The translations under genes were made by a program, and so were the position numbers. From Psilocybe azurescens (taxonomy: Eukaryota > Basidiomycota > Agaricomycetes > Agaricales > Agrocybaceae), in the NCBI GenBank assembly GCA_023853785.1, contig JAJIRX010000067.1, positions 124,001-188,000 on the forward strand: a stretch of DNA of 64,000 nucleotides, read 5' to 3'. Positions 11,857-43,969 of the stretch are shown piece after piece. Numbering within the stretch: position 1 is the first letter of the stretch; every line of letters starts with the position of its first letter. The notes under the pieces are model-generated. The model was given only the letters and a program-made list of their open reading frames with translations, was not told the origin of the DNA and searched no databases.

Positions 11857-13620
11857 CTATGATGTAGTATTGGGCTCAGGGGCCTGCTTTGCCGATTCTG
11901 CTTCTGCGTGTGCAATCTCCTCCGCACTGGGAGCCGCCGCCGCCGCCGCCAGGCCATCGGAGGGCGCTTGGGCGTTTTTACCCTTTCCAGGCGGTGGTGG
12001 GTGGTAGACTTTTTCCTAAAAATAAAATGAAATAGTCAGTCCAACTCTTTTCGATAAAAAGACAGGAAAAAAAAGGAAAACACACCTTCTTCTTCTTCTT
12101 ATCCTTCGCATTCGGATCCGGATACGCCAGCTTCTCAATCTTCTGCCATTCCTCGTTCTCCTCAAACGCCCTTCTAATCGGGTCAAGCAGCCTTACGATT
12201 CCATTCGCCACCGCCTTCTTCAAATCTCCGGGGTGCAGGGTCTTCGCAGCGAAGTCGTCGACGATGGCGGCAAGGACGCGTAGTGAGTCGTGCCCCGAAC
12301 TTGGGGTCCCGCTCGATGCTGAACACGGTTCCTTCAGGTGCATCATCCGTGATGAAGGGGCGCTGGTCGCCGAGTCCTTCTTCGAGCAGCGTCCCGTTTC
12401 CGGCAGCCACAGCGGCCTTGCGCTCAAGGCGCAATTGACTGATGGGAATCAAGACGGCCTCCACGAACGCGAGGACGCCGTTGCCCTCAACGGTCCCCTC
12501 CTCGCAGAACGCGGCTTTCAGCTTCTTGCGCACGGTCTCGGCAGTGTCGAGGAAGTCGATCTTAGAGTTCGGGTCCGAGGCGGACATTTTGCCGCCGGCG
12601 AGCCCGGGCACCATGGCGTTCATGAGGTGTGCGCGTTTGGCGTAGCCGAGACGCGGGAGGTAGAGTTCTGCAAAGGTAAAGATCTTGCGCTGAATGGGAG
12701 AGTGAATTGGTCAGTACGATTTTAATATGATGATCTTGGTGAGTAAAGATGCGTACTTGATCAACACCACCGAATTGGAAGTCGACCCCGAGGTACTGTT
12801 CGTCAAGAGCCTGTAAGCCAGGGTACAACAGTCCACTAAGCAGTGCGCTATCGACCTGCTTTACCACCTCGGCTCCCGCCTTCTTGGCGTCGTGCTCGGT
12901 CACCGATGCGCAAAGTCTGTAGTTGTCCATGTTGTACTCCCTCGTGAGCTGGTAGGACGATCCCTCGACAAAGCGCAGGGTGGATGTGGGGATCCCGAGG
13001 GACTGGAAGACCGTGCGAAGGAGGAATTCGTAGTATTTTGTGCGGTGGGCGACTAGTTCGAGAGGCGCTTTCATGTTATCGAGGAATGCATGGATATCTG
13101 TGAAGTTCGATACATTGAGGTGAGTGAATTGCAGTGCGTAGCTTCGTGGGTTGCCAGTGATGCACAATGCGTTACGGGGTGGGTGAAAGATACACGACTA
13201 ACCTGCCAGCAGAATGGTGACCTGCAAATCAAAAATTCGAAAATACATGAATACTCCGAAATAGACACGAAGCCAGGTGTCAAATTGATCGACCACGTAC
13301 ATCAACGCCCGCTCGCAAGAAATCCGCGATTTTGGTCAATGGGACGAAGTATCCGATGTGTGCTGAACAACGTTAAGCAATGCACATTTGAAGGGGGTAA
13401 CCTAAATAATTGGCGTACGTCTTCCAGTGGGGGCAGTTCCTGTATGTATACATCAAAACTTAGAGTCGGTTCGAACAGAGATAGTGTGCTTGAAGATGGT
13501 ACGCGCCCCAGTAACATTTCGGCTGCCGTCCTCTGCGAGGACGCCTTTGATGATATCTGCACCGAGAACCTCTTGCAATCTCCGGGTGATGAGCTCGTAC
13601 TTTTCGTCTGGTGTCGCCAT
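11857..13620 (-). CDS. Cytosolic tyrosyl-tRNA synthetase, copy A
   Basis: Class I aminoacyl-tRNA synthetase that charges tRNA-Tyr in the cytosol. The minus-strand exons match the family in order: [14 protein letters not shown]; the HIGH-like region [29 protein letters not shown]; the tyrosine pocket with [17 protein letters not shown] and FQFGGVDQ; the KMSKS-like loop [17 protein letters not shown]; then the C-terminal [15 protein letters not shown] and a tail with seven alanines. Introns are short, and the gene is on the opposite strand to tRNA-Gly. Three sites lack a base compared with copy B: about 13532 (GAGGACGG), about 12295 (TTCGGGGC) and about 12270 (TCCTTGCC). The first garbles the K-C-Y-W-G segment. 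The other two lie about 25 nt apart and shift the frame between DPKFG and AAIVDDFA. It is either the functional gene with assembly indels or a decaying copy. Sequence homologous to copy B also covers about 150 bp upstream. Confidence 0.85.
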
Positions 13621-15155
13621 CAGTAGAAAGGATAGATCGAAGTAACTTGTAAACTTGACTTGGCTGCAAGATCGCAAAATCTTATCGAGTGACTCGATGC
13701 GGCAATTACCGTTAAAGCTATTATCGTTCTAAATAAATAGCTACAATTTGATCGTTTTCCGTATTCGGAGGTTGGACTTCAAATTTAAATGTTGGAATTG
13801 CCTTTGCACTTCCATTTGTACCTTTAGTCCAAGGATGGAGGATCGTCGAAAGATATTTTCCCGCCGCATAAATCAATGACGTCGTAGTCTTTGGGTGTCA
13901 TCTCGAGATCATCAGAGACGCACCGCACCAAAGCAAGTATAGATCGGCGTAGACCCCTTGTTAGCCTTTGGTCCTAGAGTGGCTATGAAAGAACACTATA
14001 CAGAATAAAGAACGATTGATTAGTTGTAGCCACTTTGTATGAGACTTATAATACGAATCACGCTACTAGTGCGTCACTACAGAGCCTCAAGTGTGTCAAA
14101 TCAGCTGCCTAAGCTTTAGACATATCATTTCTTCTACTGGTGTCTTCTGAATCGGTGTTGCACTGGCTAGCAGTCCTGAATTACCACACTTTCAATTGTT
14201 ATGACACGCTGTCGTAGCCTCCGGGAGCCGCACAGAAAGTGATGAAGGGATTTGTAGTTTCATTGATAGTATCGTACACGTTGTGCTCAATCGACAGGGC
14301 TCTAAGATAAATGTTACTAAAGGTTTGACGGAATACTATAATAAATGCCATGAGAAGAATGACACCCTGATGCACAGACTTAGAAGCATCTCTTTATTTC
14401 GGAAATAAAATGTAGTCGAGTGGAAACCACCGTCACAGCTAATATTCTTGGCTCCAAGCCGAAGCTCATGATGACCTTTAGCAATATCTACCGTACATGA
14501 CAAGCTCAAACGTGCTGCTATAGTACTTGCTAGTTCGAGCGAACGGAAATTGATAACTAAGAATTTAAAAACGCTCTTCTAGACCCTGTGGTACGTCTAT
14601 TCTCGGCTTCAGTGGCGAACCTAGAGCAGGAGAAGAAAAGGCAAAAAAAAACAGAAGTTCATGAGTCATCAGAGCCGGTTTCTTACCTTACGGAAACAAC
14701 TGTTCATTTACCTGGAACACTTACACTATGCAAGGAGAGGATTCTTATCAAGACGCACTCACAGATGGAAAAAGACTGCTTACCACTTACCTGGAGTCCT
14801 ACGTCTCTCAACCCGAGAAAGGATAGTAAAGACCACCAGATTCGACTGTAGACAGGAATTCTCGCTTCCAGTTAAAGGGGATCGCATGCTATCGTAGTTT
14901 CGGTAAAGATCTGCGCTCCGTGTAGCCCGACTGCCTAAAGCCGAAACTAGGACAGTATGATTCGGCCCGTCCTATCAGCTCCTCATATAAAAAGGACGAC
15001 GTCTCGTCAATATTCTTCAAGCTGCGCTTCCAATCTACAACTTATACAAACATTTCACAGTGCCGGTCGCTTGTATGTCGCTCCTTTAATTATCACTGTT
15101 GTTAATGCTCACACTGACTGTGTTCTAGAATTTCTTATTCTCTTCCACAATCAAC
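13621..15155. other. Intergenic, 1.5 kb
   Basis: The first 150 bp resemble the upstream region of TyrRS copy B (17642-17795), so the duplicated segment includes the promoter. The rest shows no gene. Overlapping open frames at 14588-14897 have no recognisable content. Confidence 0.4.
14986..14994 (+). promoter_or_regulatory. TATA box of the secreted-peptide locus
   Basis: TATAAAAAG lies 170 nt upstream of the ATG at 15156 on the same strand, leaving room for a 5' leader. It is a good match to a fungal TATA element. Confidence 0.4.
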
Positions 15156-15570
15156 ATGCATATCAAATCCGTCATCATTTCCACTGCTGCTCTCATCCCC
15201 CTCGTCTGCGCGAACCCGTATGTATACCTGCATGCTGTCATGTAGTCTGTTCTAACACCTCATTTTGATGAAGCATGTCATCCAACTACGGAAGCGAGAA
15301 CTAGCTGTAAGTCACTCCATTATGTGCATGCTAGCACATAACGGATACTGACGATTACTTATCTGAAGCCGTCGCAATGGTGTTCTCAAGTGCCCAAACT
15401 ATAATAACCAAATAATATGCAACACAACCCACTACTGCCCCCATCCCGGCGCCAGACCGACCCACATCCCGGGAAGCTATACTGGGAATGAAGCTTTTTT
15501 TTGTGCACTGATGGACGCAGATGCAAGTGCCTGTAATGACGGAGCTCGGAGCTCAGAGAATTTTATCTAG
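15156..15570 (+). CDS. Small secreted cysteine-rich protein, splicing uncertain
   Basis: Exon 1 (15156-15217) encodes MHIKSVIISTAALIPLVCANP, a clear signal peptide. The last exon (15369-15570) encodes a cysteine-rich segment with KCPNYNNQIICNTTHYCPHP and later FFCALM and SACND, six cysteines in all. Joining these two directly keeps the frame and gives 87 aa, but the intron would be 151 nt. Two introns of normal size (15218-15273 and 15307-15368) would instead include a 33-nt exon, which has an in-frame TAG at 15302-15304. So the transcript either skips this exon, or the gene is truncated after about 30 codons. A good TATA box lies upstream. The family is unknown; the pattern is that of small secreted proteins common in Agaricomycetes. 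Confidence 0.5.
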
Positions 15571-15825
15571 AAACCAGTTTTTGTATTGAATATACGGTTT
15601 ATTATCATAATTCTTGAGCAACCAAAACTGTGAAGCCATCAGAGGTACAAGCTGAAGTCTAACGCAGTAACATTTGATCATCTCACACTGGAACGCAATG
15701 TACAAAGTAAGGTATTGGTAATAATTGCCTCCAGAATGGATTACTATTTTCCATTGCGATGCTGACCGGTCGTTATTTGTGCTCTGTTTGCTGCCGAGAG
15801 TCCCGGCGCTTATCTTGCGACCATA

Positions 15826-15966
15826 TTATAAAGACCAACGTGGTTCATTTGGCCTCGGAGGAGAAGCAGAAATATTGGTGACTAAATTTTCAACTCTCTT
15901 CTTCAAGCGAGACACGAATCGAGAGCATGTCTGAAAAATATTTGCACGGCGCCATGAAGTCTGTGA
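15826..15966 (-). pseudogene. 3' tail of a kinase-like gene fused to TyrRS copy B
   Basis: The minus strand encodes WRRANIFQTCSRFVSRLKK followed by a Pro-rich end. This aligns residue by residue with WRRANVFQACSQFVSHWKR at the C-terminus of the kinase-like gene ending at 43969. It is the downstream half of the gene whose 5' part is at 17865-18298, with the TyrRS duplicate between them. Confidence 0.75.
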
Positions 15967-17641
15967 GCTCGTAGGGACCTGTTGCGTTGCAAATTTCGCT
16001 TCTGCATGTGCAGTTTCAGGAGAAACTGCTAGTGATGGTGCACCGGGCACCTGTGTGTTTTTGCCCTTGCCGGGTGGTGGAGGGTGGTATACCTTCTCCT
16101 AAAAGGAAAAGTGTTAATGCGCAGGCTCACTCCAAATCCTAAAACAAAATACACACCTTCTTCTTTTAGTATCCTTCGTAATTGGATCGGGATAGGCCAG
16201 TTTTTCAATCCTCTGCCATTCCTCGTTCTCTTCGAACGCCTTCCGGATTGGATTGAGCAGGCGCACGATGCCATCAGCCACTGCCTTCTTGAGGTCGCCC
16301 GGGTGCAAGTTCTTGCAAGCAAAGTCGTCGTGAATGGCGGAGAAAGAGGAGTAGTGCATTGTGCCTCCGAATTTAGGGTCCCGCTCGATGCTGAATACTG
16401 TGCCTTTCGGCGCGTCTTCCGTGATAAAGGGCCGCTGGTCGCCCATCCCTTCTTCCAGCAGCGTCCCAGAGCCCGCATCTACTGCCATCTTGCGCTCAAG
16501 GCGTAATTGACTGATAGGAATCAAGGCAGCCTCGACAAAGGCTAAAATACCATTTCCCTCGACCGTGCCCTCCTCGCAGAATGCAGCCTTCAGCTTCTTG
16601 CGCATGGTCTCGGCGGTGTCGAGGAAGTCAATCTTGGAGTTAGGGTCCGAGGAGGACATCTTGCCGCCGGAAAGCCCGGGCACCATGACGTTCATGAGGT
16701 GTGCGCGTTTGGCGTAACCGAGGCGCGGGAGGTAGAGTTCGGCGAAGGTGAAGATCTTGCGCTGAACGGGAGGGTGTAGTCGTCAGTGAGGTAATGATAA
16801 TGTGGGTGAGACGGAAAGGAAACAAATACTTGATCAACACCACTGAATTGGAAATCTACCCCAAGGTACTGTTCGTCGTGCTTCACGACCTCCGCCTCCG
16901 CCTTCTTGGCGTCGTGTTCGGTGACTGATGCACAGAGTCTGTAGTTGTCCATAGTATATTCCTTGGAGAGCTGGAAAGACGATCCCTCGACAAAGCGCAG
17001 AGTCGACGTTGGGATCCCGAGGGAGGTGAAGACAGCTCTAAGGAGGAACACGTAGTATTTTGTGCGGTGGGTGATTAGTTCGAGGGGAGCTTTCATGTTA
17101 TCGAGGAAGGCGTGAAGATCTGTACAGTTCGCGGCAATGAGATGGACAAGCTCATTCAAGGGGACATGTGTGCTGCTAGTAGTCGAAAGGGGTGAGACTA
17201 ACCTGCCAGCAAGATAGTAACCTGCATTTGTGTTATGCACAACCATGAATACTAGTCAATGTACACAAAGACAGATAAAATGACAATGGCCACATACATC
17301 AACTCCCGCTCGTAGAAAATCCGCGATTTTGGTCAATGGGACGAAGTAGCCGATGTGTGCTTTGAGAAACAATTAACATTTAGCTTCCAGCCAAGGTGCA
17401 CAGTTGAGTGAGATCTGGCTGAGCAATCTACGTCTTCCGGTTGGGGCAGTTCCTGCATGTATACACCAACATTTTAGCATTGGATTCGAATAGACAGACA
17501 TATAGTCAATAAATTGTAGTACGTGCCCCAGTAGCATTTCGGCTGCCGTCCTTCTGCGAGTATGCTTTTGATGATATCTACTCCGAGGGCATCTTTCAGT
17601 CTCCGGGTTATGAGCTCATACTTTTCGTCCGGTGTTTCCAT
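15826..17641 (-). pseudogene. Tyrosyl-tRNA synthetase copy B, damaged and fused to a kinase tail
   Basis: Second TyrRS gene, same strand and exon layout as copy A. It retains [60 protein letters not shown] and [17 protein letters not shown]. Three defects are visible. First, 17 codons are missing after EAEVVK: copy A has [18 protein letters not shown], copy B only H. That segment holds the Tyr and Gln equivalent to human Tyr166 and Gln170 of the tyrosine pocket. Second, one base is missing near 16165, shifting the frame before the last exon. Third, the C-terminus does not end like copy A. After about HAEAKFATQQ it runs in frame into SWRRANIFQTCSRFVSRLKK, which matches the end of the kinase-like gene at 42555-43969. 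The exon 1 donor keeps the frame only if a GC donor (GG|GCACGT, 17526) is used. Tyrosine charging is unlikely. Confidence 0.75.
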
Positions 17642-17864
17642 CGGTATGGAGGCTAGATCGAATGTAATTTGTAGACTTTGAAGTTCGCATTTACATCTTA
17701 TAGTCATCGAGGAATGACTCGATACAGGAGTTACCAGCGCCGTCCGACCCGCGTCAAAGCTATTAACGTTCAAAATAAAAATAGCTACAAGCTGATCACC
17801 GAGAGTCCCTTTTGACTCGCAGCAATAACGGACGGTCTTTAGTCATTAGGCCGAAGAATGACGT

Positions 17865-18298
17865 CCTGTTCGTTGGGAGGGTGGAGAACATCCAAAATGG
17901 GGACGCAATGGTTTATAGGATTAGCTGATAGCTTCTCAGAAGAAAGACACCGCGAGACGCCCTCCTCGTATGGATGCCCCTTTGTGAGCACTATCTTCAA
18001 AGCAATACGGATGCCCGTCGGTATATGAATGGCATCATTGACTTGTCCGTGCTTCGAGCTTTCACATCTGCATTATCTGCATTATCATCAGAGAAAGCTC
18101 TTAGCCTCAGTCTGCGTCCATCTTCGTTTGTGTAGTAAAGTGTTTGATCCACTGTCCACGAAGAGACCCAATGTGGAGAATAACGAGGTCGCAGCTGATA
18201 TCCTTGGCCTTTGAGGTAAACAAAATGAGTTCTCCAGAAATATTCTGAGGGTCCAAAACACCACCAGAATTGAATTCCTGCCCAACGGCTGTCAACAT
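17865..18298 (-). pseudogene. 5' fragment of an Agaricomycete kinase-like gene
   Basis: It begins MLTAVGQEFNSGGVL at 18298 and is colinear with the start of the gene at 42555 (MLTAADHEFNAGGVL). It continues through the first intron and the VAL-K strand region (IPTGIRIALKIVL) to a point equivalent to VLHPPNEQDVIL, near 17865, where similarity stops and the TyrRS copy B promoter begins. One base is missing near 18256 compared with the intact paralogue (GGTGTT-TTGG against GGTGTTCTTGG). The catalytic loop, DFG region and most of the C-lobe are absent. Confidence 0.75.
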
Positions 18299-18701
18299 GA
18301 TAGGAACTGGGAATGCTGTATCCTGTATGTGATAGTTAACAAGGACTCATAGTGACCATTGTGTTCAGCCATGGTAAATTTTGTATGTGACCATGTTGGG
18401 CCCTCGGCTCGTGTATGTGTTTTAATGCGTTTATCATTGCAAGTGTAAGTGGAGTGATTCCCCACCCCTCCCCAGATCCATCGAATCCTGGATATAGGCG
18501 GTTGCGTTCAAGCTGTTCTTATTCGAACTAAGTGGTTGCGTTTAGAAGCTGCTTACTTTCCGTGATCGGAAGTTGGACAGTCACAGTGGATTTAGCCTAA
18601 GTATGAACCAACTATGAACGTGTGGATGAGGAGCAAGAAACAGCTGACTTTATACCTCCAAGTATATTAACGTTATGAAATCAAAAAAAAAAAGGCCAAA
18701 T
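18299..18701. other. Intergenic between kinase fragment and MFS gene
   Basis: No gene seen. This holds the former upstream flank of the kinase fragment and the 3' flank of the transporter gene. Confidence 0.35.
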
Positions 18702-21247
<2,546 letters not shown>

Positions 21248-22746
21248 TGAAAGAAAAGGAAATGAAGAAGGCGGAGAAGGAGAAGGGAGATGAAAACTCT
21301 GCGGGAGCAAAAGTGAAAAGTACGCCAGGCAAAGTCACAGTTTATGTAGTGCTTCCATGGAATTCAGTTTGATTGATCTCATCGGGGGCCACGCAAAAAT
21401 GAAAGACAACTTCGAGAGGCACCAGGCTGAGTCGTAATGCGCAATTACACAAAGCTTCCTGACAGTCATTCCGTCACGGTCGTCCGCGAATAGAACTCCT
21501 AAGCATATGGCGCACATGGCGCTCCAGAGTTCCCCAGGATTCCTGAGCTCCGTTCAGTTTCATATTTCGCACATCGCCAGTAAAAATGATGGATCCATGA
21601 AAAGCACGCACCCTTGTGGGGATCCTGAAAATCCACGTTGCGAGAAGAAGACGGAAATCTGGACGATTTCGTGGCGAGTTGGGGTACTGGGTTCCCCATG
21701 TTGCATGTTGCATCGGCGATTTTTGCTAGTCCTGCGAGTAGGGTTGTGGGGCTGTTGTGGGGTGGTGACTTTGATGCGAAGGATTCGCGTTTTCTAAACG
21801 TGTAATAATGTCCGATTATCCATGTAGACGATTGGAGCCCTGGTGAGAGATAATCATGACGAAGAATGTAATGACGGCTCGGCACGCGCGCCAAAATTGA
21901 CCGTATATAAATAACACCAATCAACTCGGCTAAAACGTCCCCGAAGTTGTGGAGCACAGCAAGAGCACAGAGCATGGGTCTCGTCTTCATCAGAGTCGTG
22001 GACATTCCTCTAGAGATTCTTCTCTTCTCAACTGCCTTACATGACCATCTTCACAGAGTTAATAAGTTAGTTACGGAACAACAGTATAACAACTAGAATT
22101 TCTTGAATCAGTGATCGACATTATTCGAGTCCGATTATTATCAATAAAGCATCGGAGAATATAATTATTTCCTGGTGAGCCCAAGATGAACAGAGTTTGC
22201 CACGAGCGCACGAATTGGGTATTGACCAAAGAGTAAATTGCTAAAATACGGACCATTGCAAGTTAGTTTTCAGCTTCAATCTCCGACTACGTGACTATGC
22301 CGCGTTGCCGCTCTTCCCTGAGAACATGTATTACGGATAGTGTAAAGAAATATCACCAGACACGGGACTTCTGCAAATCTAACTGCGTGATTGATTAAGT
22401 AGAGTTGGACTACAGAACAACCTCATAGGCACTCAGCCTAATGAAATTATGAGGGTGAAATGGTACAGGTGACCGAAATATATCCACAGGTATGACTATG
22501 CCCATCCGCTACAGCACTTCAACAGTGCGTTTTTACTGAAAGTTGCCACTTGAAGCCTATGAACTCCAGATGTGGACGCAGCATATAGCCTAACAGGATA
22601 ATCCTATTAAAGCGGACCAGAACTTGAGCCTGAATGGTGGTTGCAGCAGCATGGTTGTAGAAAGAGGCACTACTTGGAAAATCTCCCTAACATTTCAAGT
22701 CTCGACGGCGTATGCCGGAGCGGCGATACATCATTCATAACGAATA
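21248..22746. other. Intergenic upstream of the MFS gene
   Basis: Contains the MFS promoter. A 168-codon minus-strand open frame at 21499-22005 has no recognisable motif and overlaps other frames; not called. Confidence 0.3.
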
Positions 22747-27068: not shown

Positions 27069-27640
27069 GATTATCTAGTCTATGGGATGTGGAGCAGAGA
27101 AATAGAAAGAGGAATCACCATTGCCGATTGCAGAGTCACAGTTGAGAGTTCAAGAAAAATACCAGTCACGTGTACGGGCCGGCGGATAGGGCTTTTGTGG
27201 AGTCTCTTCTCAGTTCCGTCAAAAGTTAAAACACCCCAAAAGTCAGCCAACAACTTGCCGAAAACACACGACATATTTCTCCTGAGCGTTTCTCTTTCTT
27301 GTTTAAGTCTCTAGATATGTATGGACTCTCCTTTATCTTTTATCTTCTGGTTATAAACTGGAACAAGTAAACCTACGCTGGCATGATTTGGTAAGTTGGA
27401 TTCAAAGCGATTTGAAGAAAGAATCATGACAACCTTAGTGAAGGGCATAGATCTGAATCACTACTTGGATACGATCCTAGTGCCAGCACCACTGGGCATC
27501 GGAAAATACAGATACTTTTAGTATCAGTTGGCGATAAGTGAACAGCCATACTATGTTATCTGTTCCTCATCAACTGCGGAATGTCTTGCAGAAGAGCCTA
27601 TGCGATGCGATATCAACGAGCTGAGAGACAGAAACATGGC
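27069..27640. other. Intergenic; divergent promoter region
   Basis: Separates PRP43 (transcribed left) from the duplicated alpha/beta block (transcribed right). The last 130 bases resemble the region upstream of beta2 (33050-33160), so the alpha and beta promoters share ancestry beyond the duplicated block. Confidence 0.5.
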
Positions 27641-27828
27641 GAGATTAACGTACTATTCTCGTGCACGGAATTGGATTTCCGAGTATGTGGGTAGTATGGC
27701 ATGTCCGGGCGCTTTCTATGGCCTCGAGGCGTCATCGCCTTGGGCCAGTGTACTCTCATGAGCTATATCAACTGATGGAAAAATGAATGGCATGGTTAGA
27801 TTACCTCCCACAGAAAAAGACTTTCGGG

Positions 27829-28200
27829 ATGAGAAGACCGGAGGGTCCTCGCTCGAGGGGCCTAACAGAGATAATCCACTATTCGCATCCTATAGGGGCC
27901 AACCCAACGACACCACAATGTTTTATCCAGTAATATCAGACATTCATGCGGCCACAGAAGAGTTGGTCCACAATATATAGGTATCTCAGTCTTCAAATTT
28001 CAAAAGTGCCATATAATTCAAGTACGCTATGGATTAGAACAATAATCATGACCTCTGTCAGCTCAGGAGAAAAGCAGAGACGATATGGTGCCAACTCGAG
28101 ACTATTTCCCTTGGTGTAGTATCCACAGATCAGCGTTTTATTTTGATCGGCAGGATATAATACATATTGTTCGAAATCCAAAGGAGGACCTATCCAGCGA
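27829..28200 (+). pseudogene. alpha1, degenerate copy of the alpha gene
   Basis: Same order as alpha2: an ATG-AGA-AGA start, a short exon encoding RDNPLFASYRGQPNDTTMFY, then the KAETIWCQLETISLGV exon. Differences from alpha2: one base is missing in the CTCGAGGGG stretch, shifting the frame. The codon before the intron 1 donor is TAG instead of TCG. About 0.55 kb is deleted so that GGTGT of exon 2 runs straight into the final-exon sequence (STDQRFILIGR). The promoter TATA is also degraded (TATATCA). Three independent lesions make this a real pseudogene rather than a sequencing artefact. Confidence 0.75.
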
Positions 28201-28970
28201 CTGATTATTGTACCTTCATTCGACGATGATCACAACTTAAGGGACTCACCTTTCAACACGACTCAAACAATACTGTGTGCTCCTGCAGAAAAACAAACGT
28301 CGAATTTTCTTTTTTAGACTTCTTTTACAGGTTGGATAGTCACGTTGTGCGCCCACATTACCATGCGGGAACCCGACGAGTAGCTACGTAAACGTCAAGT
28401 AGCGGCATAATCGAACAGAAATTCTAGAAGTAGTTCCTGTTCACTTACTTGATACATGTCAGCCTAGGCTTGTACTTGTCGAAGGAGCATATTCCAATAG
28501 GAAGACGTATCCCCCTTTTCCTGTTGAGAATTTTGATATACCCTAAGTCCAGTTCTCTGATGCTCTCGGAAGCGATGCCACTTTTGGTCCCCTTTAGGAT
28601 CGTATTAGGAGATTTTAAATTTTAATCAGAACGACTCTGCAACGAATTGTTCTCCTCTGGTAACGAGCTTGGCATCTCTCTGTGTTCAAGCAAACAGATA
28701 TATTACAGATAGTTGCTAGTGAGTGACAGCTGTGTATCAAAGGGCGGTGTTTAATCAACTCACATCAGTCCTCGAGGCCTTATCTTACCAGTAATCCGCG
28801 CTGTGCCATCTCCTTTCGTGAGATCGAAGTACTATTCTTTACACAGAGTTCAAGTTCGAACCCATTTTCCGAGTATACGTATAGAATGACATGGACGGAT
28901 CTTTTCTAAGGCCTAGAGGAGTCACCGCCTTGCGCCAGTTTACTGGCATGATCCAAATATGAGAATCAAG

Positions 28971-28977
28971 TATATAA
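28971..28977 (+). promoter_or_regulatory. TATA box of beta1
   Basis: TATATAAACG lies about 60 nt upstream of the beta1 ATG. The same element at the same distance precedes beta2 and alpha2, so it is conserved among the paralogues. Confidence 0.6.
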
Positions 28978-29038
28978 ACGGGTAGAAGACCAGGAAAACC
29001 CCCCATTAGATCTTCTCCCACTAAGCCGAACATAAAGT

Positions 29039-29970
29039 ATGAGAAGAGCTAAGAGGCCTCACTTGATGGGACCCGACCGGGACAACCCAGAATTCACCAC
29101 CAATGACGACCACCCCAACCGCATTGTAATGTTTTATCCAATACTAGCAAATATCCATGAGGCTACACAACAGTTGGCCGTTTATATATCGGTATGTCAT
29201 TCTTCAAATTCGACATGCCATAAATCCACATACCTTCGAATCGATTAGGACAATGATCATGCCATATGCCAACTCGGGAGAAAGGCGGAGACGATATGGC
29301 GTCAAATCGAGGCGCTTTCCTTTGGCGTTTTGTTATCACTGGTCCATTCTCTGGAATCGTACAGATTGTAGGTAGATCTTTGCATTAGAGAATATACAAT
29401 AACCTGCTATCGTACCATTAGATGCTTATACGACATTCGCGATTTGATTGACTCAGGCACCACTATAGGCGCCCACAATGATCGTATCTCGGAGATAAAT
29501 CAACGCATGGACCATTTTCTGGTGGAATTCAAGGTGAATTTCTATATTTCGGGTGCAAATTACAAGTTGGGTAAAACATGACTATATCAGGCTTTATCAT
29601 CTCAAGGGACATCTCGTATGTTCACTTCTTACATATGTTTTATCATGAATAATGAATGAATCACCTCAAAATCTTTGTAGATATGTTCCAACGAGCTCGA
29701 GATTTTACTATCACACAGTCCACCTTTACTCAGCATACGATTCAAAACACAATACAACATCCAGTACAAATTATATCAGACTCTGTAGTTCGTGAGCAAG
29801 CCGTACGTGATACTAGAACCACCACTATCGAAAGTCTTATTGGAGCTGAGAGCATACTATTTACAGGACAAGATCTTGCGACTGCAATATTTGCAAATCA
29901 GCGTTTTATTTTGATCGGCAGGCCATACGTGTCGTTCGAAATGCAAAGTGAAGATTTATCAAAACGTTGA
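29039..29970 (+). CDS. beta1, unrecognised Agaricomycete protein
   Basis: Five exons (29039-29191, 29249-29367, 29422-29533, 29591-29615, 29681-29970), all joined in frame by GT-AG introns of 54-65 nt, give 232 aa. It starts MRRAKRPHLMGPDRDNPEF, then an amphipathic, helix-prone centre (MFYPILANIHEATQQLAVY, KAETIWRQIEALSFGVLLSL, LIDSGTTI, INQRMDHFLVEFK). A C-terminal part follows with FQRARDFTITQSTF, ISDSVVREQAV and NQRFILIGRPYVSFEM. There is no signal peptide, membrane span or catalytic motif. The F-x5-F-x-I-x4-F pattern resembles a short beta-type segment often seen in Agaricomycete NLR-like and related proteins; this resemblance is an impression, not an alignment. A conserved TATA box precedes the gene and a perfect hairpin follows it. 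Its neighbour of the same family is psi-alpha1. Function unknown. Confidence 0.75.
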
Positions 29971-30097
29971 TCATTCACCTCCCTTCCTTGATCTTGACGA
30001 GTTGATGGTCTATACTCTTCCATTTCGACTCAAACGACTACGTATGCTCCTGCAGAGCAAGAAACGCCGACTTTTGCCCTTCATTTATTATCACCCC

Positions 30098-30142
30098 CGA
30101 CACACTATTCTCTATAGAATTTATACGACGAATAGTGTGTCG
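30098..30142 (+). other. 13-bp perfect hairpin downstream of beta1
   Basis: CGACACACTATTC and GAATAGTGTGTCG form a perfect 13-bp stem around a 19-nt loop, 128 nt after the stop codon. The same hairpin stands after beta2 with an intact stem and a few loop changes, so the stem is kept while the loop drifts. It may be a 3'-UTR element or a remnant of an inverted-repeat insertion. Confidence 0.8.
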
Positions 30143-30973
30143 TTGCCGATACTTCACGCCATGGTCCATCCTGGTTGTATCGGGGAATGATGAATCTGAC
30201 CCATTTATCTCTCCTCGACGTACTACTTATTTGATACAGTATTTATAAAATGGATAGAGTGTTTGCTCCAATACTTTAGCACACGAGACATTCATGGGAG
30301 GTTGGATATCTCTGTTGCTTGGCCTTGGGAGTTGCAAATACTTTTTCTTTTTCTTTTTCTTGCGGTCCCTCATGTTAGAAACCGCGCTTAGGCTTAGTTT
30401 GATAAATCGGCGAGGTTGTCCAAAGCGAGTGTAAATCGAGTAGAGACGTAGGTAACGTAGATGACCAATATATAACACTTATTTACTAGTAATTGAACTC
30501 GTCCTATGTACCTCACTGGCAATAGTTAGTATAGCAGGACCCCTGATATACTTATAAACGAGTAGTAGAACTTAATAAGCTCAGACTAGGTTACAGATAA
30601 ACTATAGATGTAAATTGATATCCTATTCTAGTTTTACATGAGAGCTTATATACTATTGTAAAACTAATCTTTCTGGAACATTCCCTAATATTCTACCTTG
30701 TTGTATATTCTTCCTGTCTTGAGGAGGCGATGCACGCTGACTCGAGACAAAGGCGACATTTTCTTTCTTGTGTCGTGTGACTCATAAGCGAAGCATGTCT
30801 GATCCCTAACACCTCATTTCATGACGAAGATCATTCTGGGCATCAATTGTATAGGGACTATACATGTACCATTGTAACACACCATATGATAGAAAGGACA
30901 ATTACCGTGTTGCTTATTATATGGGTTCAGTAATTCCTCTGAGCCGCTGAATGCTGTTTATCCCTAAATAGGA
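30143..30973. other. Spacer in block 1
   Basis: Corresponds only in part to the spacer after beta2 (34474-34841). The first 160 bases align, the rest is unrelated or heavily diverged. Contains an (A)n/TTTTTC-type low-complexity tract near 30340-30360. No gene seen. Confidence 0.4.
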
Positions 30974-31230
30974 ATTACCAGAGGACAACCCTGAGGCGTG
31001 AATCGCCACGAAACAAATAGAGCCAAACGCTTCCGTCTCAAGCGATTTTGCGTTAGCTTGATTTTTGCTCGTAAACGTCGTCGTTGCTCCCCCTTTCCCG
31101 CCCTCCGAACGGGTTTTACAATGGCCCTCCCTACGCCCTCTTTTGATGGTATTGGCATTGCCAACTTGCCCAACCAGGTACGTATGTTGGCTTGGTGTTG
31201 CATAGCGGGCGGGCAATAACTGACGCGTCT
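30974..31230 (+). pseudogene. Orphan septin promoter, exon 1 and partial intron
   Basis: Near-identical to 34842-35104 upstream of the complete septin gene. Exon 1 (31121-31177) is intact and encodes [19 protein letters not shown] with its GTACGT donor. After about 53 nt of intron the sequence switches to alpha2 upstream DNA. There is no acceptor or second exon of the septin. If the promoter still fires, the transcript would run into the alpha2 promoter region. Confidence 0.85.
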
Positions 31231-31359
31231 GAGATTAACGTACTATTCTCGTGCACGAAATAGAAACTGAATTTCCGAGTATCTGTGTAGTCTGACATGT
31301 CCGGGCGCTTTCTATGGCCTCGAAGAATCATCGCCTTGCGGGAGTGCACTCACATGAGC

Positions 31360-31366
31360 TATATAA
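31360..31366 (+). promoter_or_regulatory. TATA box of alpha2
   Basis: TATATAAACGG, 65 nt upstream of the alpha2 ATG. It matches the elements of beta1 and beta2 in sequence and distance. Confidence 0.6.
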
Positions 31367-31424
31367 ACGGATGGAAGATTGAGTGGCGTGCTTGGATCAC
31401 TTCCCACTGAACAAGTCTTTCTGG

Positions 31425-32333
31425 ATGAGAAGAAAGAAGGGCCCTCGCTCGAGAGGGCCTGACCGAGATAATCCAATATTCGTAGCCGATGGGGGCCAAC
31501 CCAACCACACCACAATGTTTTATCCAGTAATAGTAGACATCCATGCCGCCACATCAGAGTTAGTCCACCATATATCGGTATGTCACTCTTCAAACTTCAA
31601 AAGTGTCATATAATTGAAGTACGCTATGGATTAGAACAATGATCATGACCTCTGTCAGCTCAGGAGAAAGGCAGAGACGATATGGTGCCAACTCGAGACC
31701 ATTTCCCTTGGTGTCCTATTATCTCTAGGTCATTCTCTCGAGTCATACAGATCGTAGGTCGATGTACTAGCCCTAGGATGTTTACTGATCTGTAATCCTG
31801 ATAACAGATGCTTATATGAGGTTTGCGAGCTGGTTAACTCAGATACCACTCTAAGCGCCCGTGGTAGCCAGTTGAATCAACGCATGGACGATTTTCTTTT
31901 GAAATTCCAGGTGAGTCCCAGTATAGCGCTGTGTAATCCAAGGTCGGATAAATTATGGCTGCACGTTAGGTTATGTCTTCTCAAGGAACATCCCGTAAGA
32001 TGATGCTCTACCCTGATCCAACAGTGGTAGTAAATGTCTGACAACTTTCAAATTTTGGCAGACATGTTCCAGCACGCCAGAGATTTCGCTATAACAAAAT
32101 CCACATTCTCTATACAAAACACAATTCACCAACCAATACAAGTCACGTCAGATACTGTTATTCGTGAGCAAGCGGTGAGATCTTCCTCTTTATCATCGAT
32201 AGTTTCATTCGAGCTGAGAATAAAATATTTACTCGAAACAGGACAAGATCCTACGACTACAGTATCTGCAGATCAGCGTTTTATTTTAATCAGCAGGCCA
32301 CACATATTGTTCGAAATGCAAAGGAGGCCCTAA
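31425..32333 (+). CDS. alpha2, unrecognised Agaricomycete protein
   Basis: Same five-exon plan as beta1. Exon 1 gives MRRKKGPRSRGPDRDNPIF and ends HHIS|GTATGT. Exon 2 starts after GGATTAG with NNDHDLCQLRRKAETIWCQ. Exon 3 covers RCLYEVCELVNS and MDDFLLKFQ. A mini-exon VMSSQGTS follows, and the last exon gives HMFQHARDFAITKSTF ... SADQRFILISRPHILFEM. Length is close to beta1 (about 230 aa), and the protein is clearly related but diverged, so alpha and beta are older paralogues than the block duplication. No known domain. It is the only apparently intact alpha copy. The TATA box is conserved, and the orphan septin 5' end lies directly upstream. Confidence 0.7.
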
Positions 32334-33300
32334 GCTACTGATCATTGCACCTCCATTCCACGATAATCACAAGTTGGGGCTCACCCTTTCATTACGACTC
32401 AAACATTTCTGTGTGCTCCTGCAGAGAAACAAACGCCGATTTTTTCCTTTTTACATTTCTTTTACACTACTTTTGCACTTCATTTTTTCTTTTCTTGTTC
32501 TTCACTGATATATTGCTCTGTAAGTCAAACGCCGCATTATCCATCGCAGAATTATTCACTTCTCTACATTCAATAGAGGTCATCCACGGGAGGTTGGATA
32601 GCCATGTTGTGCGCCCACATTACCATGCGGGAACCCGACGAGTCGCTACGTAAACGTAAATGTTGTGCAGCGGCATAATTGAACAGAACTTGTAGAAGTA
32701 GTTCCTGTTCGTCTATTTGATACATACCAGCCTAGGCTTGTATTTGTCAAAGGAGCATATCCAAATAGGAAGACGCATCCCCCTGTTTCCGTTGAGAATT
32801 GTGATATAATCTGAGTCTGGTTCCCTGATGCTCTCGGAAGCAATGCCACTTTTGTTCCCCTTCAGGATCGTATTAGGAAATTTAAAATCTGAACGACTCC
32901 GCAACGAATTATTCCCCTCTGATAACGAGCTTAGCATCTATGCTCGAGCAAACAAATATATTACAGATAGTTGCCAGTGAGTGACAGCTGTGTACCAAAA
33001 GGCGGTGTTTAATAGTTCAAATCAGGCCTCGAGGCCTTATCTTACCAGTAATCTGTGCTATACCATCTGCTCCTCATCAACTTCGATGGGTGCTGCCGAG
33101 GAGCCTGTATGATATGAAATCAAAGGGCCAGCGACATAGAAGCATCGTGAGATCGAAGTACTATTCTTTACACACAGAGTTCAAGTACGAACCCATTTTC
33201 CGAGTATACGTGTAGAATGATATGGACGGATCCTTTTAAGGCCTCGGGGAGTCAGCACCTTGCGCCAGTTTACTGGCATGATCCAAATATGAGAGTTAGG

Positions 33301-33307
33301 TATATAA
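33301..33307 (+). promoter_or_regulatory. TATA box of beta2
   Basis: TATATAAACGGG, about 60 nt upstream of the beta2 ATG, identical in position to beta1. Confidence 0.6.
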
Positions 33308-33368
33308 ACGGGTAGAAGACTGGGCAAATCCCCCATCAGACCTTCTCCCACTAAGCCGAACATTAAGT

Positions 33369-34276
33369 ATGAGAAGAGCTAAGAGGCCTCACTTGAGGGG
33401 GCCCGACCGAGACAACCCAGCATTCGCTACCAATGGGGACCACCCCAACCACGTTGTAATGTTTTATCCAATACTAGCAAACATCCATGAGGCTACACAA
33501 CAGTTGGCCGTTTATATCTCGGTATGTCACTCTTCAAATTCGACATGCCATAAATCCACATACCTTCGAATCGATTAGGACAATGATCATGACATATGCC
33601 AACTCGGGAGAAAGGCGGAGACGATATGGCGTCAAATTGAGACCCTTTCCGTTGGTGTTTTGTTATCACTGGTCCATTCTCTGGAGTCGTACAGATTGTA
33701 GGTAGTTCTTTGCATTAGAGAATATACACTAACCTGCTATCGTACCACTAGATGTTTATACGACATCCGGGATTTGATTGACTCAGGCACCACTATAAGC
33801 GCCCACAATGATCGCGTCTCGGAGATAAATCAACGTATGGACCATTTTCTGGTGGAATTCAAGGTGAATTCCCATATTTCTGGTGCAAATTACAAGTTGG
33901 GTAAAACATGACTATATCAGGCTTTATCATCTCAAGGGACATCTCGTATGTTAACGTCTTGGACATGCTTTATCATGAATAATGAACGACTCACCTCAAA
34001 ATCTTTGTAGACATGTTCCAACGAGCCCGAGATTTTACTATTACACGGTCCACTTTGACTCAGCATATGATTCAAAACACAATACAACATCCAGTACGAA
34101 TCGTATCAGACTCTGTAGTTCGTGAGCAAGCTGTACGTGATACTAGGTTTACCACTATTGAAAGTCTGATTGGAGCGGAGGACATGCTATTTACAGGACA
34201 AGATCTTGCGACTGCAATATCTGCAAATCAGCGTTTTATTTTGATCGGCAGGCCATATGTGTCGTTCGAAATGTAA
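33369..34276 (+). CDS. beta2, near-identical paralogue of beta1
   Basis: The same five exons and splice sites as beta1 are present, and the open frame is kept throughout. It starts MRRAKRPHLRGPDRDNPAF and ends NQRFILIGRPYVSFEM-stop. The stop replaces the Gln codon (CAA to TAA) of beta1, so beta2 lacks the last eight residues (QSEDLSKR). Substitutions are scattered and many are conservative (for example IEALSFGV to IETLSVGV), which suggests that both copies have been under some constraint since duplication. A TATA box upstream and a perfect hairpin downstream are conserved. It lies 720 bp upstream of the septin start. Confidence 0.75.
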
Positions 34277-34428
34277 AGGGAAGATTTATCAAAACGTTGA
34301 TCATTCACCTCCCTTCCTTGATCTTGACAAGTTGATGGTCTATACTCTTCCATTTCAACTCAAACGACTACGTGTGCTCCTGCAGAGCAAGAAACGCCGA
34401 CTTTTGCCCTTCATTTATAATCACCGCC

Positions 34429-34473
34429 CGACACACTATTCTCTATAGAGTTGATACGACGAATAGTGTGTCG
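34429..34473 (+). other. 13-bp perfect hairpin downstream of beta2
   Basis: Same stem as the hairpin after beta1 (CGACACACTATTC / GAATAGTGTGTCG), with two or three changes confined to the loop. Confidence 0.8.
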
Positions 34474-34995
34474 TTGCCGATACTTCACGCCATGATCCAA
34501 GGGAGAGTGGATCCTGGTTGTATCGGGGAATCTGATCTGTGTGCCATTATGTATCAAGTATTTGATTCGAGCACTGGATCCTACTCGAGAAATTACTCTC
34601 CCAAATTCAGCACAGGGCATTCATGGGGGTTTGGATATCTGTGTTGCTTCTCATTATCAAAGCTTGAAACCAATAGGTTTCGAGCACAATCGACAAGAAT
34701 AACTGTTTGTAGGAATTCGATTACGTATAAATAGAATCAAACGAGCGTATTCCGTTTAATTCACTGTGTCTTCAGAACATAAATGGGCCAAGATGCGCTG
34801 TTATTTCTGCGTGCACTGAATGAGTTGTGACAGTTATGAACCAGAGGACCCAGAAGCAACCCTGAGGCGTGAATAGCCACGAAACAAATATAGCCAAACA
34901 CTTCCTTTCTCAAACGATTTTGCGTTAGCTTGATTTTTGCTCGTCAACGTCGTCGTTGCTCCCCCCCCTTTCCCGCCCTCCGAACGAATTTTACA

Positions 34996-36575
34996 ATGGC
35001 CCTCCCTACGCCCTCTTTTGATGGTATTGGCATTGCCAACTTACCCAACCAGGTACGTATGTTGGCTTGGTGCGGCATAGCGGGCGGGCAACAACTAACG
35101 CGTCAAAACTATGACAGAGGCATAAGATTGTAGCAAAACGTGGTGCCCACTTCACCATTATGGTTGTCGGTGAGTATCTAGTGCTAGTGACGCCGGGATG
35201 AGGTAGCTGATATGTGCTGACAGGCGAGTCGGGATTGGGCAAAACCACGTTGATCAACACCCTCTTCTCGACTGAGCTGTCACCCCTAAAAACTACAGCA
35301 AACGTCACTACAAGCAGCTGGACAAGCTGACCGAAGTCGAGATCATCAAGGCCGAGCTCGAAGAGCGTCAATTCAAGGTCAAGCTCACCGTCATCGATAC
35401 CCCTGGGTTCGGAGACTACGTTAACAACCGCGACTCATGGCTCCCAATCGTCGAGTTCATCGACGACCAACATGAAGCGTACATGCGTCAGGAGCAGCAG
35501 CCACAGCGGCACGAAAAGACAGATCTCCGAGTCCACGCCTGCCTCTACTTCATTCGTCCTACAGGCCACACGTGTGTATACTTCTTTTCGAACATATTTG
35601 TATAGTTACTGACAATCTTGCGTCGTGGTTATAGATTGAAGCCTCTAGATATCGAAATCATGAAGCGTCTGGGAACTCGCGTCAATCTCATCCCAGTCGT
35701 CGCCAAAGCCGACACCCTCACGCAGAACGACCTTTTCACCTTCAAGCAACGGGTACGTGGTAGCATCACTCATCACTGGCTTTATGGTTTAGCTTACGTC
35801 CCATCTTGTTCCCGCCTTTCCGCCTATCTCGTACGTTTAGGTTCGCGAAGTGATTTCTGCACAAGGCATCCGGATTTACACGCCACCTATTGAATCGGAC
35901 GACGAGAATGCGGACCATGCTCGCGTCTTGATTGATGCTATTCCTTTCTCCATCATTGGCTCGACTGAGGATGTCAAGACCCTTGATGGCCGCGTTGTTA
36001 AGGGCCGTGAGTACATCTGGGGTGTTGCTGAAGGTCCGTCTTGATTCGCGTCCTCTTCATATTTCGATTTCTTAAACCTGAGTAACCAAATTCCAGTTGA
36101 GAATGAGGACCATTGCGACTTCAAGAAATTGCGCTCTCTCCTCATCCGAACGCACATGCTGGATCTGATCTCAACATCAGAAGAATTGCACTACGAGAAC
36201 TACAGGCAGGCACAGATGGAGACTCGCAAGTTTGGCGAAGCCAAGGTCAAGAAGCTAGACAACCCCAAATTCAAGGAAGAGGAGGAACAGCTGAGGAAGA
36301 AGTTCACCGAGCAGGTCAAGGCCGAGGAGGCGAGGTTCAGGCAGTGGGAGCAGCATGTACGTTTGCATTTCCGATTTCTCTTCTTTCTTTGCCTATGCCT
36401 TTCTGAGGCCGCATGTGGGATGTATTGCTGACTCTTTGCCTTATCACAGTTGATTGCCGAGCGGGATCGTTTGAACAAGGATCTGGAGATGGCACACAGT
36501 GCTATCAAGCAGCTCGAGGCCGAGTTGGAGAATCTCCAAGTCGGATATGGACGCAGCGGCACCAACAGAAGATGA
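34996..36575 (+). CDS. CDC12: Septin, Cdc12/AspC type
   Basis: GTP-binding filament protein of the septin ring at the bud neck or septum. Exons: 34996-35052, 35118-35169, 35224-35571, 35635-35752, 35841 to about 36033, then two more ending at 36575. Seen in order: the Cdc12-type N-terminus [15 protein letters not shown]-loop GESGLGKTT (about residue 37), the switch [29 protein letters not shown]4 motif AKAD, the septin unique element [18 protein letters not shown], and a C-terminal coiled coil ([12 protein letters not shown] ... LEAELENLQ). The length of about 400 aa is normal. One base appears to be missing in the A5 run at 35288-35292: LSPLK should continue [11 protein letters not shown], but the given frame reads TTANV. 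Because the rest is perfect, an assembly indel is likely. Its promoter and exon 1 also exist as an orphan copy at 30974-31230. Confidence 0.93.
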
Positions 36576-42058: not shown

Positions 42059-42554
42059 GGGTGAGTCGATTGCACGATAAAAATTCTGGTAGAGAGCTTT
42101 TAGGGAGAAATTTTTAGAGAAGCTTATTGCTGTTGAAGCTTGGATTTCTACAGTATTTAAAGAATGCTTTGGTGATACGTAACGGTAGTCACGATGCAGA
42201 GAAGTTTTCTCACAGATTTATTTTGAAGGTTGGCACACAGACGAGAAATAGGAAATGGTTTCCAAGAGACTTTGTGCGACATTGTCTTTCACACATGGTT
42301 TCTATTCATGAAGTAACGTCAACATTGAGTCTGTCAGAAAATGACTACCCTTGTAATTGTTGATCTATTATTAGGTACTTATTAATAGTACACTTAGAAA
42401 CCATTAATCGAGCTGGCGACCAAACAAAGCCAAAGGGAAAGTGAAGCTCAATTGTTCAACATTGAAATGTTCAAGCTCTAGTTGAACACCGTTGAACATC
42501 ATTCGCCCCTTGCTCACTACCCGTGCACAAGAATCACATCCTCCCTAGTCTGCC
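42059..42554. other. Intergenic; divergent promoters
   Basis: Lies between the minus-strand unknown gene and the plus-strand kinase-like gene. A run of GTTGAAC/TTCAAC words at 42440-42500 forms short inverted repeats. No gene seen. Confidence 0.35.
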
Positions 42555-43969
42555 ATGCTGACAGCCGCTGATCATGAATTTAATGCCGGTGGTGTTCTTG
42601 GACCCTCAGAATATTTCTGGAGAACTCATTTTGCCTGGCTCAAAAACCAAGGATATCAGCTGCGACCTCGTTATTCCCCAGATTGGGTCCCCTCATGGAC
42701 AGTGAATCAAACGCTTTACTTAAGTAACGAAGATGGACGCAGACTGAGGGTAAGAGCCGTCTCTCATGGTTGTAAAGATTATGCTTATTTCAAGGCCTGA
42801 AGTACGGACAAATCAATGACGCCGTTCATATACCGACGGGTTCTCGTGTTGCTTTGAAGATAGTGCTCAAAAAGGAGCATCCATACGAGGAGACTATCTC
42901 GCGGTATCTCACTTCTGAGACGCTATCGGCCGATCCCAGAAACCACTGTGTTCCCATTTTGGATGTTCTCCACCCCCAAACGAGCAGGACGACACCCTGA
43001 TATTGGTTATGCCCCTTCTTCGTCAATTTGGTTCTCCCATCTTTGATACGCTTGGCGAGGCTATGGAATGCATCCGTCAGCTTTTTGAGGTGAGGGATTC
43101 ATCATACATTTGTGTAGAGCGAGGCATATCTAACGGACCTAACGGATGTATCCAGGGCCTCCAATTTATACATGAATGCCATGTGGCTCATCGGTATGCG
43201 CTTCTCCCTATTCTCAGCACCAGGCATCACACTGAACCTACGTAGTGACATAAATATGAACAACTTCATGATGGAATCTAGGGATATGTTCCCGCAAGGC
43301 TACCATACGCAGGATATCTTGCTCAAGTCTGATTTGAGCGGACCCGCACGATATTATACCCGAACTCAGCGCCCCCGAGGTATTACATTATTGATTTTGG
43401 CATCTCTCGTCAATACGATGTTAGTGATACATCCCCTCGCGAGCCAGTGATACTGGGTGGTGATAGCACCGTACCCGAATTCAAAAATCCTTATGAAGCG
43501 CAAAATCCATATTGGACTGATGTCTATTACGCCGGTAATCTCGTTCGTACACATTTTCTTCAGGTGATACATTTCTATTATTCATGTGCCACGTCATTCT
43601 GACCTACAGAACTAGGGTCATCCTATTCTAACCCACATTAGAGGTTACAAAGGTTTGGAATTCCTGAAGCCTCTCATTGACGACATGGTACAAGACGACC
43701 CAAGCAAAAGACCAACGATGGATGAAGTTGTGAGGCGCTTTGAAGCCATCGGGAATGATTTGAGTCCATGGAGATTTCGCTCTCGGATTCCATGGCGGCG
43801 TGCAAATGTTTTCCAGGCCTGCTCTCAGTTCGTGTCTCACTGGAAGAGGAGAGTTGTCTATGTAGTCACCCGTACTCCGGCTCTTCCTCGGCCAAAGAAA
43901 CAATCATCGTCATCATTGTCCCAAGCTACTAAGCAGGACTCTCAACAACATAGTAATGGGAACAACTAA
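42555..43969 (+). CDS. Agaricomycete kinase-like protein
   Basis: Exon 1 (42555-42749) MLTAADHEFNAGGVLGPSEY is spliced with a GTAAGA donor to YGQINDAVHIPTGSRVALKI, which carries the ATP-lysine strand VALK. Later exons give GLQFIHECHVAHR|DINMNNFMM, the HRD catalytic loop with Asp and Asn (HRDINMNN), then IIDFGISRQYD (DFG) and DPSKRPTMDEVVRRFE, a typical C-lobe end. The tail is WRRANVFQACSQFVSHWKR and a Ser/Gln-rich end. All key kinase residues are present, so activity is possible. Two single-base shifts interrupt the frame: the C run at 42973-42977 (its broken paralogue at 17865-18298 has the extra base) and about 43375, before YYIIDFG. The junction before GYKGLEFLKP also could not be spliced in frame. 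It belongs to a large mushroom-specific kinase family of unknown role. Confidence 0.75.

Follow-up and report, generated by a model that had tools for sequence, protein, structure and literature searches.

The window is the whole stretch of 64,000 nt analysed here, positions 124001-188000 of contig C66 in a genome of 70.4 Mb assembled in 937 contigs. On its minus strand, the 5' part of a protein kinase gene (18299-17859), a cytosolic tyrosyl-tRNA synthetase (TyrRS) gene (17797 to about 15975, including about 156 bp of its 5' flank), and a kinase C-terminal tail (15954-15826) are joined in this order. The initial annotation had described this arrangement as a duplicate of TyrRS lying within a kinase gene that lacks its middle, and BLASTN of 15600-18500 against the window confirms the observation. 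The synthetase, referred to as copy B, matches the neighboring TyrRS copy A (16045-17797 against 11962-13753, 73% over 1858 columns, E 0). As had been claimed, the kinase pieces match the start and the end of the paralogue K: 17859-18299 aligns with 42994-42554 at 83% (E 3e-130), and 15848-15968 aligns with 43896-43779 at 77% over 121 columns (E 5e-20). Bases 42995-43778 of K, 784 nt of the kinase core, are missing at the fusion locus, with 1890 nt in their stead, and a complete kinase domain is consequently absent there. The features are listed in Table 1.

Table 1. Features of the fusion locus and its paralogues, in window positions.
Feature	Position	Strand	Remark
5' remnant of protein kinase gene, from ATG	17859..18299	-	83% over 442 columns to 42554-42994
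61-nt junction zone	17798..17858	-	Similarity to A upstream and to K within the range of shuffles
5' flank of TyrRS copy B, putative promoter region	17642..17797	-	Homologous to copy A flank
TyrRS copy B exons 1-6	16157..17641	-	Open through 370 codons; alignment to human TyrRS
Chimeric last exon	15826..16098	-	TyrRS C-terminal stretch to ~15975, then 43-residue kinase-derived tail, stop 15826
TyrRS copy A, ordinary paralogue	11857..13620	-	7 exons, stop 11857; 0/165 near-invariant columns changed
Kinase paralogue K	42555..43969	+	Nearest relative found in genome for both kinase pieces

The homology of B to A begins 156 bp before the start codon (ATG at 17641), in agreement with the "about 150 bp" of promoter originally proposed, and this region is regarded as a putative promoter. 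The left junction is blurred, because the 61 nt at 17858-17798 resemble neither the sequence upstream of A nor K beyond shuffled controls (alignments matched by 398 of 1000 and 809 of 1000 shuffles, respectively). The right junction lies at most about 20 nt from the position of the copy A stop codon. TyrRS homology past the junctions was not found, equally good alignments being obtained with 37 of 300 shuffles upstream and 149 of 300 downstream. As to terminal inverted repeats or target-site duplications, which would mark a transposon-captured gene, a scan of 15400-18700 that reports repeats of at least 12 nt gave short scattered matches, none of them at both junctions. Copies A and B have the same orientation and are about 2.2 kb apart.

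Both TyrRS copies are composed of seven exons, and their six introns are placed at the same positions, which rules out B as a retrocopy. The exons of B are located at 17641-17527, 17452-17432, 17359-17298, 17221-17203, 17119-16830, 16761-16157, and, for the last, 16098-15826. Intron 1 of both copies (13506-13440 and 17526-17453, minus strand) opens with GC, not GT, and the remaining introns of B have GT-AG ends. The gene models of P0001 from Psilocybe cyanescens and P0017 from Crassisporium leave the family pattern at intron 1, which suggests that it may be a conserved GC-AG intron. The last exon of B encodes the TyrRS C-terminus followed by the kinase tail, the latter read as in the kinase itself. 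The earlier claim that the TyrRS frame reads into the kinase tail holds within this exon. At the lysine-rich end of exon 6, B as assembled is one base short compared with A, which puts the tail in a different frame from exon 6 if the homologous splice site is used. The P. cyanescens fused protein is in frame at this point. Copy A, in turn, is one base shorter than B at three places (~13532, 12294, and 12271).

Exon 5 of B also lacks 51 nt (17 codons) between 16879 and 16878, in frame and within the catalytic domain; this loss could be an assembly error. The 17 missing residues, which are present in A, include the alignment positions of human TyrRS Y166 and Q170, which are tyrosine-contact positions. 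Compared with human TyrRS, the tyrosine pocket of window B is incomplete. Exon 6 of B matches PF00579 with 53 bits against a curated cut-off of 21.1 (P0010, the fused protein of P. cyanescens, reaches 126.2 bits), and spliced B carries PHIGYF and GGKMSSSD, which we take to be the HIGH-like and KMSSS signatures of TyrRS. A profile search of the genome with PF00579 gave 10 matches, among them A and B; the other loci are read as a mitochondrial-type TyrRS (C175), a mitochondrial TrpRS (C506), and a cytosolic TrpRS (C477). The only cytosolic TyrRS copies found by this search, and by the DNA search with its two matches, are A and B. Consequently, if the assembly is complete, one of them must do the essential work.

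One-base frame breaks in A and B would ordinarily point to pseudogenes. This explanation was rejected because five HSP70 loci also change frame without a gap, within conserved protein sequence (C477 ~737413, C454 ~770435, C719 ~13331, C434 ~292225, and C631 ~14229); two further positions, C434 ~291875 and ~291537, were left out of this count because they resemble introns. Small indel errors thus occur at a notable rate in the assembly, and the locus illustrates how an indel-prone assembly can mimic pseudogenes.

The same fusion is found in P. cyanescens, where protein P0010 (CVT25_004206) ends in a junction and tail of the window B type. In a search with the C-terminal stretch of the fusion, P0010 was the sole match among 26 candidates from a 90%-clustered database. 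The P. cyanescens fusion is known from the protein alone, whose model starts after the first exons, and it is evidence for the right-hand junction. In a quick IQ-TREE phylogeny of 122 rows (120 listed of 4803 matches, plus A and B), the proteins A, B, P0001, and P0010 form one clade (SH-aLRT 99), within which P0010 is the sister of B (99) and P0001 that of A (89); among the 120 relatives listed, the P. cyanescens copies are nearest to those of the window. Two cytosolic TyrRS proteins of Galerina marginata (P0002 and P0003) are paired with each other in the tree and represent an independent duplication. Between the two Psilocybe species, 310 of 313 residues are identical in the A body, 278 of 296 in the B body, and 37 of 43 in the tail. 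P0001 and P0010 read through the places of the window's one-base breaks, save in the first exons outside the P0010 model, and P0010 retains the 17 residues lost from window B. These comparisons show that the fused C-terminus predates the divergence from P. cyanescens, as far as can be judged from protein sequences.

It is very improbable that the TyrRS and kinase pieces were falsely joined by mis-assembly, although small frame errors do occur in the assembly. The same right-hand fusion occurs in another species, where it shows a divergence of its own, 6% for the body and 14% for the tail. The initial concern about a mis-join is thereby answered for the right junction, and the left one is without an independent check. 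The CVT25 proteins are assumed here to come from the Illumina assembly of P. cyanescens. The published genome of this species is described as Illumina-sequenced (PMC6121855). The finding is not an artefact of the present assembly; support is weaker for the left junction than for the right.

When the genome was searched at the DNA level, each of three queries (the TyrRS piece, the kinase 5' piece, and K) returned itself and one partner, all on the window's contig. A DNA search with 15600-16040 returned itself and a short match outside the tail at C66:231706-231792. Because the genome DNA searches missed the tail match visible by BLASTN, weaker copies may exist. A protein search with K gave 61 matches, including the tail at C66:139847-139966 (56%, E 2.5e-5); the others are more distant kinases, K itself, or the 5' piece. 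The relatives of K belong to a large Agaricomycete PF00069 family, mostly of about 360-400 aa, with GALMADRAFT_74620 of Galerina at 60% to K. FunK1 (PF17667) was considered as the kinase family and rejected, since none of its at least 126 genome matches is listed on C66 and the relatives of K carry PF00069; 2 of the 120 relatives listed (P0125 and P0190) carry PF17667 besides PF00069. The last ORF of K alone gave no Pfam family match.

The two kinase pieces at the fusion locus differ from K in several respects. In the 5' remnant, intron 1 has a CT donor where K has GT, dN/dS relative to K is 0.48 and 0.41 in the two exon parts, and the frame is stop-free apart from one one-base gap. These dN/dS values and the CT donor would be expected of a dead remnant. 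The family ending HW-x-R ... A-x-P is common to K and 13 aligned relatives (of 120 listed), and its H-W reads R-L in both fusions when compared by eye. With dN/dS of 0.98 against K over 34 codons, the tail has probably lost the constraint of the kinase family. The AlphaFold2 model of P0010, poor as a whole (mean pLDDT 63.8), contains one predicted helix in the tail at 405-435, with 10-residue mean pLDDT values of 48, 78, 81, and 63.

Other rearranged or repeated segments were encountered. Pieces resembling window 21489-21972 and 15519-15697 adjoin at C66:231.4-231.9 kb, giving this contig a second mosaic. Several segments of window 27558-35104 are repeated internally at 67-93% identity; 46458-47755 and 49010-50323 are 64% alike (both by BLASTN). 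In Cyclocybe aegerita, a TyrRS (P0011) and a near kinase relative (P0124) may place both parent genes on one contig.

Divergence between TyrRS A and B amounts to dS 0.83 (95% 0.654-1.065) and dN 0.072, which gives dN/dS of 0.087 (bootstrap 0.061-0.117; 366 of 370 codons, 4 dropped). The 58 residue differences in 400 columns, when polarised by 14 relatives, fall on B in 42 cases and on A in 9, with 7 ambiguous. Consequently, B has been looser than A yet strongly constrained for most of its life, and these ratios show long purifying selection on the TyrRS part, at the level of codon comparison. At near-invariant columns, of which 165 were defined over 118 relatives, B has 7 changes in 153, P0001 has 5, and P0010 has 9 in 153; the 118 control rows have a median of 0 and a maximum of 5 in 162. 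All five changes of P0001 are taken to lie in a mis-spliced stretch, and seven of the nine in P0010 in a mis-predicted N-terminus. Over the 295 body columns compared, 12 differences from A that arose since the species split are confined to window B and 6 to P0010. Since some changes are thus private to P0010 as well, decay differs between the two species in extent, not in kind. Constraint is weaker in both fusions than in A, and weakest in that of the window, which has the 51-nt loss in addition. Given this loss and the changes at near-invariant sites, window copy B is probably decaying.

The age of the kinase pieces can be compared with that of the synthetase pair. The kinase pieces differ from K by dS 0.285 (0.176-0.42) over 154 codons, and the TyrRS dS was equal to or lower than this in 0 of 1000 bootstrap pairs. 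Since dS is 0.83 for the synthetases and 0.285 for the kinase pieces, the TyrRS duplication and the kinase fusion seem to be separate steps. The initial annotation had a TyrRS copy replace the kinase core in a single event; the embedded duplicate with its flank stands, and the single step is not supported by these dS values. That annotation did not mention the 51 nt missing from the catalytic domain, the age of the fusion and its inheritance, or the assembly's indel errors. The TyrRS paralogue seems to predate the separation of this kinase copy from K, unless the kinase pieces underwent gene conversion with K, which could also produce the contrast in dS. Homology of the kinase copy starts at the ATG and was not found in the 400 nt on either side, where 277 and 284 of 300 shuffles scored as well; for the kinase intron, 299 of 300 shuffles align less well than the real sequence. 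Homology confined between the flanks would also fit a conversion tract and does not decide the matter.

The likely explanation is that B is a real, inherited chimeric gene of Psilocybe-type mushrooms in which the TyrRS duplication came first and the kinase recombination later, and which is decaying in this genome. A cytosolic TyrRS gene was duplicated to give A and B, and ectopic repair or recombination would later have joined a kinase copy and TyrRS-B. Copy B lies between the kinase 5' part and tail, its stop codon replaced and its last exon running into the last 43 codons of the kinase. Transcription would proceed from the TyrRS gene's own 5' flank, and the product would be a TyrRS-like protein whose C-terminal extension is basic, probably helical, and devoid of the conserved residues of the kinase family. 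In P. cyanescens, B may still charge tRNA-Tyr, as the 17 residues are kept there. In the window genome, B should be unable to bind tyrosine owing to the 51-nt loss, and copy A would perform the housekeeping function while B decays.

A single event, in which a copy of TyrRS A was pasted into the kinase gene and later gene conversion rejuvenated the kinase pieces, is unlikely. It would account for the position of B close to A in the same orientation, for its possession of A's flank and introns, and for its end at A's stop codon. However, it must explain a dS contrast that no bootstrap pair reversed, and it requires that conversion affected the 5' piece as well as the tail. Somewhat less likely still is that B remains a fully working second TyrRS here too, with the 51-nt loss and the one-base break being assembly errors. 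The low dN/dS, the other exons, which are open, the GT-AG introns (besides the GC donor of intron 1 common to A), and the 17 residues in P. cyanescens B all fit a working gene. Yet a clean in-frame loss of 51 nt is unlike the small frame breaks of the HSP70 loci, and the near-invariant substitutions of window B include G147E, G165S, and V248A, sites at which P0010 is unchanged.

Retention of B as a catalytically dead pseudo-synthetase with a new role, such as tRNA binding or pairing with A, is improbable. In its favor, the frame is open over 370 codons and the loss is in frame, but the changes at conserved sites and the freely evolving tail resemble decay. Equally improbable is the broader proposal that the genus possesses a second, lineage-specific TyrRS to which the helical kinase-derived tail gives a new place or partner, and which is non-catalytic in this genome while still binding tRNA or the sister subunit.

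Copy B belongs to the same family as cytosolic TyrRS (class I, PF00579), with KMSSS and a HIGH-like PHIG motif, and its 14-residue C-terminal stretch is common to many of the Agaricomycete TyrRS examined. It is unlike cytosolic TyrRS in that its own stop codon is lost, 43 kinase-derived residues are added, and, in the window, 17 catalytic-domain residues are missing. The Agaricomycete PF00069 kinase family is the source of the tail and the 5' remnant; the kinase core is absent from B. Human TyrRS has an appended C-terminal EMAPII-like domain. Both it and fusion B thus have a C-terminal extension, that of B being unrelated, short, fast-evolving, and kinase-derived. Chimeric genes formed by duplication and recombination are described, for example, in Drosophila yakuba (PMC5460883). 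As in the chimeras described there, two parental genes are united in one, with the 5' end from one and the 3' end from the other; unlike them, one parent here is an essential tRNA-synthetase gene and two separate steps are indicated. Two identifiable parents share one frame within the last exon, P0010 is in frame throughout the part that is read, and, as the P. cyanescens orthologue shows for the right-hand junction, the fusion is inherited beyond one genome. Chimeric genes of this kind are known, and B is a genuine example. A TyrRS-kinase fusion was not found in the open-licence literature searched by title for TyrRS chimeras, Psilocybe, and basidiomycete synthetase fusions. The locus is a clear and approximately datable example of how a paralogue of a housekeeping synthetase gained a new C-terminus from a gene unrelated to it; relatives of both parents lie within one 32-kb stretch, and a second species has an orthologue. 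This system allows tests of the use of such an extension and of the way in which duplicated synthetases are lost.
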